A DNA stretch of 64,000 bases from Aquirufa beregesia. Lineage in GTDB: Bacteria; Bacteroidota; Bacteroidia; Cytophagales; Spirosomataceae. Below the pieces are notes generated by a model. That model had not been told where the DNA came from, did not search any database, and saw nothing but the letters and a program-made list of their open reading frames with translations. Both the position numbers and the translations under genes were made by a program. This document shows positions 31,783-41,678 of the stretch, piece after piece; the first letter of the stretch is position 1; each line of letters opens with the position of its first letter. Location of the stretch: contig NZ_SEWW01000001.1 of assembly GCF_011090385.1 (NCBI RefSeq), forward strand, positions 682,001 to 746,000. Direction: 5' to 3'.

Positions 31783-32703
31783 ATGCTTGATTTAGGATTT
31801 GTTTCAGCTATTCTACCCAATAAAACATTGTGGGAAGTATTAGATTTTGCTCATGCACAGCAATTTGCTTGTGTAGAAATTATGTGTTGGCCATCCAGTA
31901 ATGCAGATACTCGTCGCTATGCCGGTGTAAGTCATATAGCAATAGATGCCCTTTCAAATGAAGAATTATTGACCTTAAAAGCCCAATTAGCTCTTCATCC
32001 GGTTAAGATTTCTGCCTTAGGATACTATCCCAATCCCATGGATCCAAATGAAGAACAAGCATTATTTTATCGGGAACATATCAAAAAAATAATCCAAGCG
32101 GCTTCCGTCTTAGGAATTAGTACTGTTACTACTTTCGTTGGTCGAGATTATACCAAAAACGTTGCCTATAACATAGGCAAGTTTACCGAAGTATGGCCTG
32201 AGATAATCGCCTTAGCAGATTCTCTGAACATCAAAATTGGAATCGAAAATTGTCCGATGTTTTTCACAGACGATGAGTGGCCAGGCGGTAAAAACTTGAT
32301 GACCACGCCTAAAATTTGGGATCAATTATTTAGCATTATCCCATCTAAAAACTTTGGATTAAATTATGATCCATCGCACATGGTCTTCCAAATGATGGAT
32401 TACACCTATCCTATTTATCATTATGGAGAAAAATTGCATCATGTTCACCTCAAGGATATCAAGGTTTACCCTGAAAAATTAAACCGAGTAGGAATTTTAG
32501 CTAATCCTTTGGAATACCATTCGCCTAAAATCCCTGGATTAGGAGATATCCATTGGGGAAAATTCATTTCTGCTTTAAATGATGTGAGGTATCGTGGTCC
32601 GATCGTTATTGAAGTGGAAGATAAAGCCTATGAGGGATCTGATGAAGATATTGAAAAGGCCATTTTAAGTGCTCGGAATCATATCAAGCAGTATTTGCCT
32701 TAA
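31783..32703 (+). CDS. Sugar phosphate isomerase/epimerase (xylose isomerase-like)
   Basis: A cytoplasmic 306-residue TIM-barrel protein of the AP_endonuc_2/xylose isomerase-like superfamily. Candidate metal ligands follow the family plan: the Glu in CVEIMCWP, GIENCPMFF (about 165-173), the YDPSHMVFQ segment (about 199-207), HHVHLKDIKV (about 221-230) and VIEVEDKAYEG near the C-terminus. Members isomerise or epimerise sugars and inositols; the substrate is unknown. Directly downstream lie two palindromes. Confidence 0.85.
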   Translation: MLDLGFVSAILPNKTLWEVLDFAHAQQFACVEIMCWPSSNADTRRYAGVSHIAIDALSNEELLTLKAQLALHPVKISALGYYPNPMDPNEEQALFYREHIKKIIQAASVLGISTVTTFVGRDYTKNVAYNIGKFTEVWPEIIALADSLNIKIGIENCPMFFTDDEWPGGKNLMTTPKIWDQLFSIIPSKNFGLNYDPSHMVFQMMDYTYPIYHYGEKLHHVHLKDIKVYPEKLNRVGILANPLEYHSPKIPGLGDIHWGKFISALNDVRYRGPIVIEVEDKAYEGSDEDIEKAILSARNHIKQYLP

Positions 32704-34905: not shown

Positions 34906-35808
34906 TTATACAAACTTGTAGTTGATTGAATCCCGTAAAAAATCTCGACTGATTGTACCGCATTGCAAAGGTGTTTTCGCTTTATCTGGTACGCCATCCA
35001 ATTCCACAATAGCCCATCCTTTGAACTTGATCTTACGAATATTGGTGAAAATTCCTTTCATATCCACATTACCTTGTCCTAATTCTACAAACTTATAGGA
35101 CGCTGGATTGGATTCTTGCCCTTTGATAGGACTCTCTACATCCTTAATGTGAAACGAATGAATGATATTCTTGTATTTTAAAACAGCATCAGCTGGCTTG
35201 CCTCCTCCTTGATGGTAATGTGCCACATCTAACAACAAACGTAGATAAGCTGGATTCATGCTCTTAACTAGGGTATCTACTTCTTCTGGAGTCTCTCCAA
35301 ACTGGTTCATGTGATTGTGGTAAGTAGCCTGAACACCCACTTCTTTCGTTCTTCTTCCAATTTCATTCATCACCTCAGCCAGCTTATGCAAATCTTCTTT
35401 ACTAGGCATTTCTCCTTTCTTACGTAAACTATTCGTTAATTGAATGGAATCTCCTCCTAAAGCTTTTACAAACTTCGCATGGTTAACGTGTTGCTCAATG
35501 GATGCTGGAACTTTGGCAGGATCAATCTCCACATTTCCACTGGAAAACATCACTAATTGAAGTTTAGATGCATCCAATAGTGCCTTTAAATCCTGAGGGT
35601 TGTCTTTGTATTTGGTATAAGAATTGGCTCTCAATTGGATTCCCTTAAATCCTAAAGAGGCAATATCCAAAATGGCTTGATCATCTTTTCCTCCCCAAGT
35701 AATGGCAGAATACCCCATTTTGAAGGACGAATCTGCCGCTGAAGCAGGAAAGGAAGCCATGATGGCCAATAAAGAACTTTGCTGGAGAAACTCCCGACGC
35801 TTAATCAT
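34906..35808 (-). CDS. Exported sugar phosphate isomerase/epimerase-like protein
   Basis: A 300-residue xylose isomerase-like TIM barrel with a twin-arginine type signal (KRREFLQQSSLLAIMASF, ending near ASAA at 22-25), so it is probably exported folded with its metal. Likely ligands: TYHNHMNQFGETPEE (about 160-174), LLLDVAHYHQGGG (about 189-201), HSFHIKDVES and a late VELDGV. Its pathway is unknown. The gene is 40 bases from the GDPD-like gene upstream and 19 bases from the MFS gene downstream, suggesting one operon. Confidence 0.82.
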   Translation of the reverse strand: MIKRREFLQQSSLLAIMASFPASAADSSFKMGYSAITWGGKDDQAILDIASLGFKGIQLRANSYTKYKDNPQDLKALLDASKLQLVMFSSGNVEIDPAKVPASIEQHVNHAKFVKALGGDSIQLTNSLRKKGEMPSKEDLHKLAEVMNEIGRRTKEVGVQATYHNHMNQFGETPEEVDTLVKSMNPAYLRLLLDVAHYHQGGGKPADAVLKYKNIIHSFHIKDVESPIKGQESNPASYKFVELGQGNVDMKGIFTNIRKIKFKGWAIVELDGVPDKAKTPLQCGTISRDFLRDSINYKFV

Positions 35809-36596: not shown

Positions 36597-39500
36597 TTAT
36601 TTCTTCAAATAATCACCTGAAACAATTTGCGTATCGGCTTGAGTAGGTCTATTATACAAATAGGCATAGCTTTCAACTTCTTGTCCATTCAATTGGACCT
36701 GAACTTTGGTTCTGACAAACAAACTTTTATCTGGTTTATCTGCATCAAACTCCTCATATTCATCCAATACGCTTAATAATTTAATCGTATTAGATAATAA
36801 ATACAACTCCCCTACTACCTGATCTTTCTGATCATCTGATGCGATAATACCAGGATATTCCGCAACTTGATACATACGACCTTGGTAGGTTGCCATACCA
36901 ATATAATCGGAATTACGCGCCAATAATCGATGTAAGTCATTACCGCAATCACGACGCAGTGTACCATATACAAATAAGTATTCCTCTACATTCGGTTCAG
37001 GTAGCTTAGCCTCCTCCAAGGTTAATACTAAATCATCTTGTTCTACCACAGTCCCTTCATGCAAAACCACATTTCCTATGATCCCTTCAAATGGAGCCGA
37101 TACAATGGATTCCATCTTCATGGCTTCAATCACATACAATGGTGCGTTTTTCTTTACCTCTTCACCTGGTTTCACCAAAATGCGGCTTATTCGACCTTGC
37201 AATGGGGCTCCAATATCTCCTTTTTGAGAGGCTTTCACATGTTGAGGTCGTTCTACTTTGATATTCTTGTCCAATACCTTAATTCGACGAGCCTGACCGT
37301 TCAATTCAAAGGTTACATTGCGTAAGCCTGATTCATCAGGTTCAGACATATGCAAGAATTTCACGATAATCGTTTTTCCTGGCTCTATTGTAATCATGAT
37401 TTCTTCATCCTGCTTTAAGCCATAGAAGAATGCAGGTGTCGGCATTGCCGTTAAATCACCATAAATTTGATGATTCTTGTAGTAGTCTTCATATACTTTC
37501 GGGTACATTTTATACGACAAGTAATCATAGAATCCCCCTTCATTATCGGGGAATTTTGCTTGAAAAGCAACAAAATCTTTATCGAAATCAATAGGAGCCA
37601 AATGATCGTTTGGTCTTCCTTCCATAGGAATCTCTCCTTTCAAAATGATTTCCTGTAATTGCTTAGGGAATCCTTGATAAGGTTGGCCTAGGCCTCCTTT
37701 GAAGAAATCTTTTACTGACTCTGGGAAAGAAAGGGTCGCTCCTTTGGCATACACATCTTCCGCTGTCAAGGAATTGGCCGTCATAAAAATAGCCATATCT
37801 CCTACTACTTTTGAGGAAGGAGTTACTTTAACAATATCACCAAATAACTTATTCGCTTCCGAATAATTGTCTTTCAATAATTCAAACTTATCCCCTACGC
37901 CCAAGGCAACAGCTTGTCCACGTAAGTTGGTATATTGACCACCCGGAATTTCATTATCATATACTTCAGCAGTTCCTGCTTTTAATTCGGACTCAAATGG
38001 TGTATACCAAGTTCTAACTGCTTCCCAATAGTTGGAATATTGGTTCATCTCATCCAAATCCAGCAAATCTTGGTTTGCTTGGCCCTGCATCATGGCAACC
38101 AACGAGTTTAAATTCGGTTGGGAAGTAAGACCCGACATGGCAGCTAATGCACCATCAACCACATCTACTCCTGCTTCAATCGCCTTTAAATAGGTAGCAG
38201 ATTGAATGGAGGCGGTATCATGTGTATGCAAATGGATAGGAATATCCACTGCCTTTTTAAGTTCTTTTACTAATAACTCAGCTTGGAATGGTCTCAATAA
38301 ACCAGCCATATCTTTAATGGCCAACATGTGTGCTCCCTCATCTTCCAATTGGCGAGCCAAATCCAAGTAATACTGTAAATTATACTTCTCATTCGTAAAA
38401 ACGTCGCCTGTATAACAAATGGCTGCTTCAGCTATACCTGGGGTTCTTTCTCTCACGGCACGAATCGAAACTTTCATCGCCTCTACCCAGTTCAACGAAT
38501 CAAAAATTCTAAAAACATCTATACCCGCTTCAGAGGATTTCTCGACGAACTTCTCGATCAAATTATCGGGATAGGCTGAATATCCTACGGCATTCGACCC
38601 TCGGAATAACATTTGAAGGAGCATGTTTGGCATAGCCTGACGGAATTCTTGCAATCGCTTCCAAGGAGATTCTTGTAGAAATCGCATAGCTACGTCGAAC
38701 GTGGCACCTCCCCATACTTCCATAGAAAATAATTGAGGGAATGATTTGGCAAAGCCAGACGCCACAGCCAACATATCCTGTGTTCTAACACGTGTAGCTA
38801 ATAAAGACTGATGGCCATCCCGGAAAGTGGTATCCGTAAACAACACTTGTTTGGTTTCCCGAATATGCTTAGCAAATTTCTCTGGTCCCAATTCCATCAA
38901 CAACTGCTTGTAGCCCTTTGGATATTCAGACAAAGCATCAGAATAAGGTATAATGGGTGATCTAAAACTTGTAGTTGGTTTAACCTTAACATCCGGGTTT
39001 CCATTGACAATCACCTCACCTAAATAACGTAAGGCTTTCGTAGAACGGTCCCGGGTTGGGGTAAACTTAAATAACTCAGGATGTGAATCAATGAATTGTA
39101 CCGTACACTGCCCATTTTGAAAGATGGGATGGGAAATTACATTTCTTAAAAAAGGAATGTTGGTTTTTACCCCGCGAATACGGAACTCCGTTAATGCACG
39201 ATTTAAACGTTCAGCTGCTCCAAGCAATGTCCTTCCTTTGGCAGATACCTTCACCAGCATGGAGTCAAAATAGGGAGATATTTTTACCCCTGGATAAGAA
39301 GACCCTTCATCTAAGCGAATACCAAAACCAGCGGCATTTCGGTAAGCAATAATAGTACCAAAATCAGGCTTAAATCCATTGGATGGATCCTCAGTCGTAA
39401 TACGACATTGAATAGCGAATCCTTTCAATGGAATATCTTCCTGCGACAAGATATAAATACCTGGATCAGACAGTTTGTAATTTTGGGCAATTAATATCTG

Positions 39501-40457
39501 AGTACGTACAATATCGATTCCGGTAACTTCTTCAGTAATCGTGTGCTCTACCTGAACCCGAGGGTTTACTTCAATGAAATAAATATTTTCATCGCGGTCT
39601 ACTAAAAACTCAACCGTACCCGCATTGTAGTAATTGACTGCTTTACCAATAGACAAAGCATATTGGTATAATTTCTTTTTCGTTTCATCTTTAAGACCAA
39701 AAGAAGGGGCAATTTCAACCACCTTTTGGAATCGACGCTGAACGGAGCAATCACGTTCATATAAATGCACCAAATTTCCATGCTGGTCACCTAATAATTG
39801 TATTTCAATATGCTTAGGCTGATCTATGAATTTCTCAATGAAAATTGTTTCATCACCAAAGGCATTTTTAGCCTCATTACGAGCCTCATTATACGCTTTT
39901 TCTAAATCTTCTTCCAATCGAACAACCCGCATACCACGTCCTCCCCCACCAGCAGCCGCTTTCACCATAACAGGAAAACCGATACGTTTAGCTTCTGACA
40001 ATGCCAAAGAATAGACCGATAAATCTCCTTTGGAATCTTGAATCATAGGTACATTGGCCTTCATAGCTGCTACTTTAGCTGCTACTTTATCTCCTAACGC
40101 ACTCATAGCTTCGGGTGAAGGTCCTACAAAAACAATACCCTCTTCTCTACAGCGACGAGCCAAGTTGACATTCTCCGATAAAAATCCATATCCTGGATGT
40201 ATTGCATCGATATGTTTACTTTTACACAAAGCAATTAATCCTTCGTAATCTAAATAGGGTTTTAAAGGCTCATCATCTTTACCAATTTGGTAGGCTTCAT
40301 CCGCTTTATACCGGTGTAATGAGTACCTATCTTCAAAGGTATAAACAGCGACAGTCCGAATCCCCAACTCGGAGGCAGCACGCATGATACGAATAGCGAT
40401 TTCACCACGATTGGCGATAAGGAGACTAGAAATTTTTCTTACGTATGACTTTGGCAT
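36597..40457 (-). CDS. pyc: Pyruvate carboxylase with C-terminal GGCT-like domain
   Basis: Carboxylates pyruvate to oxaloacetate with biotin. In order: biotin carboxylase (LLIANRGEIAIRIM near 15; AAAGGGGRGM ATP loop near 165), carboxyltransferase (TFRDGHQSLLATR near 547) and biotinyl domain with EAMKMES near 1114. Typical pyruvate carboxylases stop near 1150 residues. Here the same frame continues to 1286, adding a gamma-glutamylcyclotransferase/AIG2-like domain from about 1158 (FVYGTLRRDCGNDLHRLL, then VVGELYLL and LDEYEEF). The fusion is seen directly; what the extra domain does is unknown. A TTG three codons upstream is rejected in favour of the ATG at 40457. Confidence 0.92.
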   Translation of the reverse strand: MPKSYVRKISSLLIANRGEIAIRIMRAASELGIRTVAVYTFEDRYSLHRYKADEAYQIGKDDEPLKPYLDYEGLIALCKSKHIDAIHPGYGFLSENVNLARRCREEGIVFVGPSPEAMSALGDKVAAKVAAMKANVPMIQDSKGDLSVYSLALSEAKRIGFPVMVKAAAGGGGRGMRVVRLEEDLEKAYNEARNEAKNAFGDETIFIEKFIDQPKHIEIQLLGDQHGNLVHLYERDCSVQRRFQKVVEIAPSFGLKDETKKKLYQYALSIGKAVNYYNAGTVEFLVDRDENIYFIEVNPRVQVEHTITEEVTGIDIVRTQILIAQNYKLSDPGIYILSQEDIPLKGFAIQCRITTEDPSNGFKPDFGTIIAYRNAAGFGIRLDEGSSYPGVKISPYFDSMLVKVSAKGRTLLGAAERLNRALTEFRIRGVKTNIPFLRNVISHPIFQNGQCTVQFIDSHPELFKFTPTRDRSTKALRYLGEVIVNGNPDVKVKPTTSFRSPIIPYSDALSEYPKGYKQLLMELGPEKFAKHIRETKQVLFTDTTFRDGHQSLLATRVRTQDMLAVASGFAKSFPQLFSMEVWGGATFDVAMRFLQESPWKRLQEFRQAMPNMLLQMLFRGSNAVGYSAYPDNLIEKFVEKSSEAGIDVFRIFDSLNWVEAMKVSIRAVRERTPGIAEAAICYTGDVFTNEKYNLQYYLDLARQLEDEGAHMLAIKDMAGLLRPFQAELLVKELKKAVDIPIHLHTHDTASIQSATYLKAIEAGVDVVDGALAAMSGLTSQPNLNSLVAMMQGQANQDLLDLDEMNQYSNYWEAVRTWYTPFESELKAGTAEVYDNEIPGGQYTNLRGQAVALGVGDKFELLKDNYSEANKLFGDIVKVTPSSKVVGDMAIFMTANSLTAEDVYAKGATLSFPESVKDFFKGGLGQPYQGFPKQLQEIILKGEIPMEGRPNDHLAPIDFDKDFVAFQAKFPDNEGGFYDYLSYKMYPKVYEDYYKNHQIYGDLTAMPTPAFFYGLKQDEEIMITIEPGKTIIVKFLHMSEPDESGLRNVTFELNGQARRIKVLDKNIKVERPQHVKASQKGDIGAPLQGRISRILVKPGEEVKKNAPLYVIEAMKMESIVSAPFEGIIGNVVLHEGTVVEQDDLVLTLEEAKLPEPNVEEYLFVYGTLRRDCGNDLHRLLARNSDYIGMATYQGRMYQVAEYPGIIASDDQKDQVVGELYLLSNTIKLLSVLDEYEEFDADKPDKSLFVRTKVQVQLNGQEVESYAYLYNRPTQADTQIVSGDYLKK

Positions 40458-40670: not shown

Positions 40671-41678
40671 ATGAACACAAATAAACCTTTGATTGGTATT
40701 AGCCTAGGTGATTATAATGGCATAGGTCCAGAGATCATTTTAAAAGCATTGGGTAGCCCAAGAATTTTGAAATGGTGTACTCCTGTTATTTATGGTTCCC
40801 AAAAGGTCTTGGATTTCTATCGTCAAAAATTAGAACTAAAAGATTGGTCCATTAAAACCATAGATAACTTAAATCAGGCTATTGAAGGTCAGAGTTATTT
40901 AGTGAAAGCCTGGGACGACAAAGACACACTAGTAGAACCTGGAAAAGTGACGCAAGAGGCAGGAAAAGCGGCTTTTGATTGTTTAGAATTGGCCATTAAA
41001 GATTTAGATCGGGGACTATTATCCGCTTTAGTAACCGCGCCAATCAATAAACACAACATCCAGTCTGAGGAATTCTCATTTCCTGGACATACCGAATATT
41101 TAACCGAACGATTTGACGCTAAATCATCCTTGATGATGATGGTCAGTGACAACCTTCGTATGGGCGTTGCTACAGGTCATTTGCCTTTGCAAGAAGTAAG
41201 CAATGCACTTAATGCTCAATTGCTTAAAGATAAAATCAGCTTGTTTTTAAAGAGTTTGAAAGAAGATTTCTCCATCGATAAGCCTAAATTGGCGGTATTG
41301 GGTTTAAATCCTCATGCAGGAGAATCTGGACTTTTAGGAAAAGAGGAATTAGAGATCATTCAACCCGTCATCGATGAGTTTAGAAGTAAAGGGAATTTAG
41401 TGTTTGGACCATATCCGGCAGATGGATTTTTTGGTAAAGCACAATTCAAAGAATTTGATGGCGTTTTAGGAATGTACCATGACCAAGGGTTGATTCCATT
41501 CAAATACATTGCTTTTGATACAGGTGTCAACTTCACTGCGGGTCTTCCTATCATTAGAACATCCCCAGACCATGGAACAGCCTATGATATTGCTGGTAAA
41601 AATGAAGCAGATCCAAGTTCCTTCATGCATGCCATCTTTTTGGCCCTTGATTTAGTAAAAAATAGAATGCAAGCATAA
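40671..41678 (+). CDS. pdxA: 4-hydroxythreonine-4-phosphate dehydrogenase
   Basis: Oxidises 4-phosphohydroxy-threonine in pyridoxal 5'-phosphate synthesis by the DXP-dependent route. The 335-residue protein has GISLGDYNGIGPEI at the start, PINKHNI near 125, metal His in FPGHTEYL (about 139-146), YHDQGLIPFKY (about 267-277) and SPDHGTAYDIAGK near 305. The leader contains TAACTTGCA at 40645-40653, also present upstream of the PASTA gene. The dehydrogenase gene follows after one base, so the two are probably co-transcribed. Confidence 0.93.
   Translation: MNTNKPLIGISLGDYNGIGPEIILKALGSPRILKWCTPVIYGSQKVLDFYRQKLELKDWSIKTIDNLNQAIEGQSYLVKAWDDKDTLVEPGKVTQEAGKAAFDCLELAIKDLDRGLLSALVTAPINKHNIQSEEFSFPGHTEYLTERFDAKSSLMMMVSDNLRMGVATGHLPLQEVSNALNAQLLKDKISLFLKSLKEDFSIDKPKLAVLGLNPHAGESGLLGKEELEIIQPVIDEFRSKGNLVFGPYPADGFFGKAQFKEFDGVLGMYHDQGLIPFKYIAFDTGVNFTAGLPIIRTSPDHGTAYDIAGKNEADPSSFMHAIFLALDLVKNRMQA

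Follow-up and report, generated by a model that had tools for sequence, protein, structure and literature searches.

Pyruvate carboxylase refills the central metabolic cycle of the cell, and it is a well-studied enzyme whose polypeptide does not usually extend beyond the biotin carrier. The 64,000-nucleotide stretch of Aquirufa beregesia DNA analysed here (the window) carries a pyruvate carboxylase gene (pyc) whose frame continues beyond that point, which raises the question of whether the additional C-terminal domain is a genuine part of the protein, where it came from and what it might do there. Both halves of the protein belong to known families; the joined architecture was surveyed within Bacteroidota, and no published report of a pyruvate carboxylase–GGACT architecture was found in the open-licence literature.

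Domain Architecture of the Fused Gene

The fused gene occupies 36597..40457 on the minus strand and encodes 1286 amino acids in a single open frame starting with ATG, with an in-frame TTG three codons upstream. The preliminary description of the window, made from the sequence alone, stated that the carboxylase frame runs on past the biotinyl domain, and this was borne out with the coordinates it gave: no stop intervenes between the biotinyl domain and the downstream region. Pfam recognizes the complete pyruvate carboxylase domain set in canonical order, followed by the GGACT family PF06094. All on the minus strand, these are the biotin carboxylase region (Biotin_carb_N, CPSase_L_D2 and Biotin_carb_C; residues 9–457, 39087..40433), the HMGL-like carboxyltransferase region (residues ~536–809, 38031..38852; Pfam and NCBIfam), the PYC_OADA conserved carboxylase domain (residues 832–1033, 37359..37964) and the biotinyl carrier domain, BCCP (residues 1082–1147, 37017..37214), within which the AMKM motif places the biotin site at K1114 (37116-37118). 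The NCBIfam pyruvate carboxylase model PRK12999, for which the cut-off is 965, scores 1677 bits over residues 7–1148, and TIGR01235, with a cut-off of 1114, scores 1620 bits on the protein. Thus the BC–CT–PYC_OADA–BCCP set is full and the equivalog scores lie above their cut-offs, and the biotinylation motif AMKM is accompanied by the catalytic motifs TDTTFRD and KDMAGLL. Judged by domain set, scores and motifs, residues 7–1148 are a complete pyruvate carboxylase.

A linker of 12 residues (1148–1159, EEAKLPEPNVEE; 36981..37016, minus strand) leads to the GGACT/AIG2-like domain at residues 1161–1284 (36606..36977, minus strand). The YGTLR and GELY...LDEYEEF motifs, from which the tail had first been read as GGCT/AIG2-like, are both present, and that reading is upheld by a PF06094 match over the whole model (78.9 bits against a cut-off of 22.8, E 5.9e-22, profile positions 1–119 of 120). 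The A. beregesia genome has one PYC_OADA and one GGACT domain, both in the fused gene.

Occurrence of the Fusion in Related Genomes

With the protein sequence of the tail as query, 37 of 38 Aquirufa genomes were matched with no internal stop, and the fused frames measure ~1290–1340 amino acids wherever the contig of a matched genome is long enough. The sole genome lacking a match is a draft of 89% completeness. A stop and a start codon between the two parts in close relatives had been named beforehand as the observation that would speak against a fusion; none was found in the 37 matched Aquirufa genomes, all of which are open across the junction. Presence in related Cytophagales had also been put forward as a check. 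Among the best 80 of 275 loci in a scan of contigs, the same architecture was found in Aquirufa and in four further named genera, Sandaracinomonas, Flectobacillus, Arcicella and Pseudarcicella, while in Emticicia, Spirosoma, Larkinella, Siphonobacter, Fibrisoma and others the match extends only to about residue 1148. In the unfused relatives examined the carboxylase ends directly after the biotinyl domain, save for tails of a few residues. By NCBI names, the fused genera with a lineage shown belong to Flectobacillaceae and Emticicia to Leadbetterellaceae.

A fused pyc is also borne by genome records that go under the names 'Cellulophaga sp. BC115SP' and 'Spirosoma fluviale' (MAGs). Two of these records, placed in the trees described below, group with Flectobacillus and Aquirufa, and pyc is unfused in Spirosoma fluviale strain DSM 29961; the species names on these fused records look wrong.

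Both sides of the junction are under selection. Pairwise dN/dS, taken from pairs with unsaturated dS only, is 0.016–0.078 for the GGACT part and ~0–0.04 for the carboxylase parts, and the mean identity among fused genes is 63% for the GGACT domain versus 86–90% for the carboxylase domains. The GGACT domain is therefore under strong purifying selection, though the constraint on the carboxylase is tighter. A missed stop codon or a misassembly, for which no supporting point was found, is refuted by this selection on either side of the junction together with the conservation of the same frame in 37 Aquirufa genomes and in other genera, among isolates and MAGs alike; as an explanation it is scarcely credible. 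The covalent fusion is real and is not an assembly error.

A free domain made from an internal translation start was considered as well and was rejected: among 12 fused genes, taken from several genera, none has an ATG in the linker region, and no GTG or TTG position is conserved there, which makes it unlikely that GGACT is also produced separately. The linker itself is strongly conserved across genera, its residues EE, L and PEP (EE..LPEP) being invariant in 23/23 fused sequences, and this suggests more than a passive tether.

Origin of the Fusion

Within the GTDB family, 214 of 223 genomes, from 35 of 36 genera, contain PF06094. It occurs as a free GGACT protein of ~130–170 amino acids in most of these genera and inside the ~1290-residue frame in the fused subset, with one match in nearly all family genomes and one in every fused genome listed. 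Of 48 GGACT domains placed in a tree, the 15 from fused genes group together as a single clade (support 100/99; 200 of 200 bootstrap trees), and its sister consists of the free genes from a single further genus in the family (91/90). The fused sequences are also one clade (100) in a carboxylase tree of 54 sequences, where the sister is the Siphonobacter group. The fusion thus has a single origin, the fused sequences being monophyletic in both trees; since the sister groups differ between the trees, the exact branching outside the fused clade is not settled.

The sister free gene lies in the order ispG–yjbR–TPR–GGACT, where yjbR was assigned by Pfam, and ispG and YjbR also adjoin the free gene in some other genera. 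At the ispG locus of A. beregesia the GGACT gene is absent, which, together with the ispG location of the sister gene, indicates replacement and not duplication. As there is no second GGACT domain in the fused genomes and no second PYC in the host, the fusion replaced both. We infer that a free gene was moved or copied once onto the 3′ end of pyc and that the original was then lost. Independently of this, the IspG of the host is the long form (686-residue open frame; positions 484000-497000 of its contig) in which the GcpE profile is split into two stretches, and this suggests an insert domain.

A precursor pair of neighbouring genes joined by read-through is not visible today. No free GGACT gene lies in the flanking sequence retrieved on either side of unfused pyc, the free copies sit in neighbourhoods other than pyc among those examined, and no conserved neighbour joins the two genes. 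This lack of linkage, which argues that there was no prior functional association, would fit a neutral event in which relocation and loss of a stop codon joined two non-interacting housekeeping functions, each selected in its own right, and the much faster evolution of the GGACT part fits it too. Such hitchhiking is nevertheless rather doubtful, since the joined state is kept, with no re-split seen, in all the members examined across at least five named genera, and since the linker is unusually conserved. Elsewhere in Bacteroidota no independent fusion was found, either in 391 genomes of the order searched by profile or in 393 across the phylum. A borderline PF06094 match of 22.7 bits was seen in a 6170-residue frame of another Bacteroidota genome (379111-379371).

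Active Site and Fold of the GGACT Domain

The catalytic site of mouse GGACT comprises Tyr7, Gly8, Thr9, Leu10, Ile50, Glu82, Tyr88, Tyr115 and Tyr143 (PMC2954230). We placed the equivalent residues by means of profile alignments and scored their conservation over 23 fused and 33 free sequences. The YGTL substrate loop (Y1164–L1167; 36957..36968), E1235 (36753..36755), which corresponds to the catalytic Glu82 of the mammalian enzyme, and Y1266 (36660..36662), the counterpart of Tyr115, are invariant in 56/56 sequences (all positions on the minus strand). The fused domain thus carries both hallmarks of PF06094, the YG(T/S)L loop and the catalytic glutamate, the latter being the residue that the preliminary description had singled out as a check. 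Tyr115 of mammalian GGACT is retained and Tyr88 is not: its position is taken by F1247 (36717..36719, minus strand), Phe in 23/23 fused sequences and Tyr in 31/33 standalone ones. Judging from the aligned sequences, this change in every fused copy may mean weaker catalysis. From the profile alignment Phe apparently also stands at this position in B. subtilis YkqA, so the substitution does not seem unique to the fused clade.

The predicted model of the GGACT domain (pLDDT 88, pTM 0.82) appears closest, in a fold search, to YkqA and to mouse and human GGACT. A weaker match to structures of Kluyveromyces lactis allophanate hydrolase (E ~7e-5, TM 0.57) brings in the idea that the domain acts on the carrier itself, for example by discharging carboxybiotin when pyruvate is short, much as the GGCT-fold C domain of allophanate hydrolase works alongside urea carboxylase. 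In urea amidolyase the N and C domains of that hydrolase break allophanate down in successive steps, in one chain with a biotin-dependent carboxylase (PMC5770610). Such chemistry on the carrier is very improbable here. The family profile, searched against the PDB, finds GGACT, GGCT, YtfP and YkqA and does not match allophanate hydrolase at E ≤ 1, though the latter is present there; moreover, the catalytic signature is that of GGACT, and the domain in urea amidolyase belongs to the hydrolase side and has no reported action on biotin. A model of the C-terminal 760 residues, which concerns the docking of the GGACT domain on the carboxylase, was dropped (pLDDT 47, pTM 0.36).

Possible Roles of the Tethered Domain

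Mammalian γ-glutamylamine cyclotransferase releases 5-oxoproline from γ-glutamyl amines, and for the GGACT homologues of bacteria no substrate is established to our knowledge. The preliminary description saw in the fusion a pairing of oxaloacetate supply with γ-glutamyl or amine metabolism. That part of it found little support, while its views on domain identity, true fusion, presence in relatives and the catalytic glutamate did: neither of the two 5-oxoprolinase families searched, the PxpA and hydantoinase_B types, was found in the host, which leaves the presumed product without a known sink, and no gene linkage accompanies the pairing. A connection to glutathione was likewise rejected, as a search for a GCS2-type glutamate–cysteine ligase in the host found none and neither of its two γ-glutamyltranspeptidases is near pyc. 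Pyruvate carboxylase goes unmentioned in a cancer paper that deals with human GGCT and anaplerosis.

Xylose isomerase-like TIM-barrel proteins are encoded near the fused gene at 34906-35808 (minus strand) and 31783-32703 (plus strand), with an MFS transporter between them; this order is conserved within Aquirufa and Sandaracinomonas, and Flectobacillus and Arcicella do not share it. In Aquirufa, Flectobacillus and Arcicella, the genes for PdxA and for a D-2-hydroxyacid dehydrogenase are located divergently on the upstream side of the fused pyc (40671-41678, plus strand).

The direct attachment of the domain to the carrier through a short, highly conserved linker could be taken to mean that it is a regulatory module, a ligand-binding unit of this kind being the alternative raised in the preliminary description. 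Such a module would bind a glutamate- or 5-oxoproline-like metabolite, alter the travel of the carrier from one active site to the other and so tune oxaloacetate supply to the nitrogen status of the cell. The clade-specific replacement of Tyr88 by Phe, in a binding loop that is otherwise unaltered, would fit binding without efficient catalysis, and the activity of pyruvate carboxylase depends on translocation of the carrier, which is under allosteric control (PMC5895798). Even so, such a module is possible but not probable, because the catalytic glutamate is invariant and the fused copy, as the sole GGACT, presumably has to cover the role of the free protein. The RIRG and DR motifs also speak against it. 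We take these motifs to be part of the acetyl-CoA site of pyruvate carboxylase, and fused and unfused enzymes alike retain them, which gives no indication of a transfer of allostery to the GGACT domain; a replacement of acetyl-CoA control by the domain was rejected on this ground. The more general claim of a new regulatory or carrier-acting module, by which the GGCT-fold domain controls or discharges the biotin carrier in response to a glutamate-family metabolite, is unlikely. If it were true, a GGCT-fold module riding on the carrier would tie nitrogen status to anaplerosis.

The reading we tentatively prefer, at somewhat less than an even chance, is that the tethered GGCT-fold domain is still an enzyme and retains its ancestral role. 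It is preferred to a regulatory module and to a neutral join by analogy with urea amidolyase, in which fusion to a biotin carboxylase raises the activity of the hydrolase and channelling is not seen (PMC5770610). The fused copy is the only GGACT left, so presumably it continues the job of the free protein. On this tethered-enzyme reading, the only GGACT-family gene of the cell would have been joined to the 3′ end of pyc in the ancestor of the Flectobacillus–Arcicella–Aquirufa clade. The product would be an ordinary biotin-dependent pyruvate carboxylase, with a GGCT-fold domain of 15 kDa hung on its mobile biotin carrier by the short conserved linker. The domain would still catalyse the ancestral reaction, most likely the cyclisation or hydrolysis of a small amide of γ-glutamyl type, with a specificity probably altered by the Tyr-to-Phe change, and the tether would serve mainly co-expression, stoichiometry and stability and not substrate channelling. 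The same Tyr88 to Phe change in all fused sequences may count against an active enzyme. So does the lack of both 5-oxoprolinase families, which makes a high-flux reaction forming 5-oxoproline unlikely unless the product is excreted.

A domain on a mobile carrier that has been kept across genera and has replaced the sole free copy is a natural experiment on carrier mobility and gene fusion. It also offers a handle on PF06094, a widespread yet functionally obscure bacterial family, through an easily assayed protein, and the fusion could serve as a marker for one clade of bacteria common in fresh water.

Comparison with Known Systems

Urea amidolyase, which joins urea carboxylase and allophanate hydrolase, is likewise a biotin-dependent carboxylase chain with a domain of similar fold. 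There the domain belongs to allophanate hydrolase, alongside an amidase domain, and consumes what the carboxylase makes; the C domain of allophanate hydrolase shares with the fused GGACT domain a likeness of fold only. The GGACT/AIG2-like proteins of PF06094 (mammalian 3jub, 3juc and 1vkb, YkqA 2qik and Escherichia coli YtfP 1xhs) agree with the fused domain in profile, with a match far above the cut-off, and in fold, and the YGTL loop, the catalytic Glu and the Tyr115 equivalent are common to both. Compared with mammalian GGACT, the fused domain has Phe for Tyr88 and is tethered to a carboxylase; counterparts of Ile50 and Tyr143 were left unplaced, as the alignment does not reach Tyr143. Single-chain pyruvate carboxylase (TIGR01235/PRK12999; Staphylococcus aureus PC, 3bg5) has the same full-length BC–CT–PYC_OADA–BCCP order and shares the AMKM biotin motif and the catalytic motifs, and to this plan the fused protein adds 138 residues after BCCP, predicted to form a folded GGACT domain.
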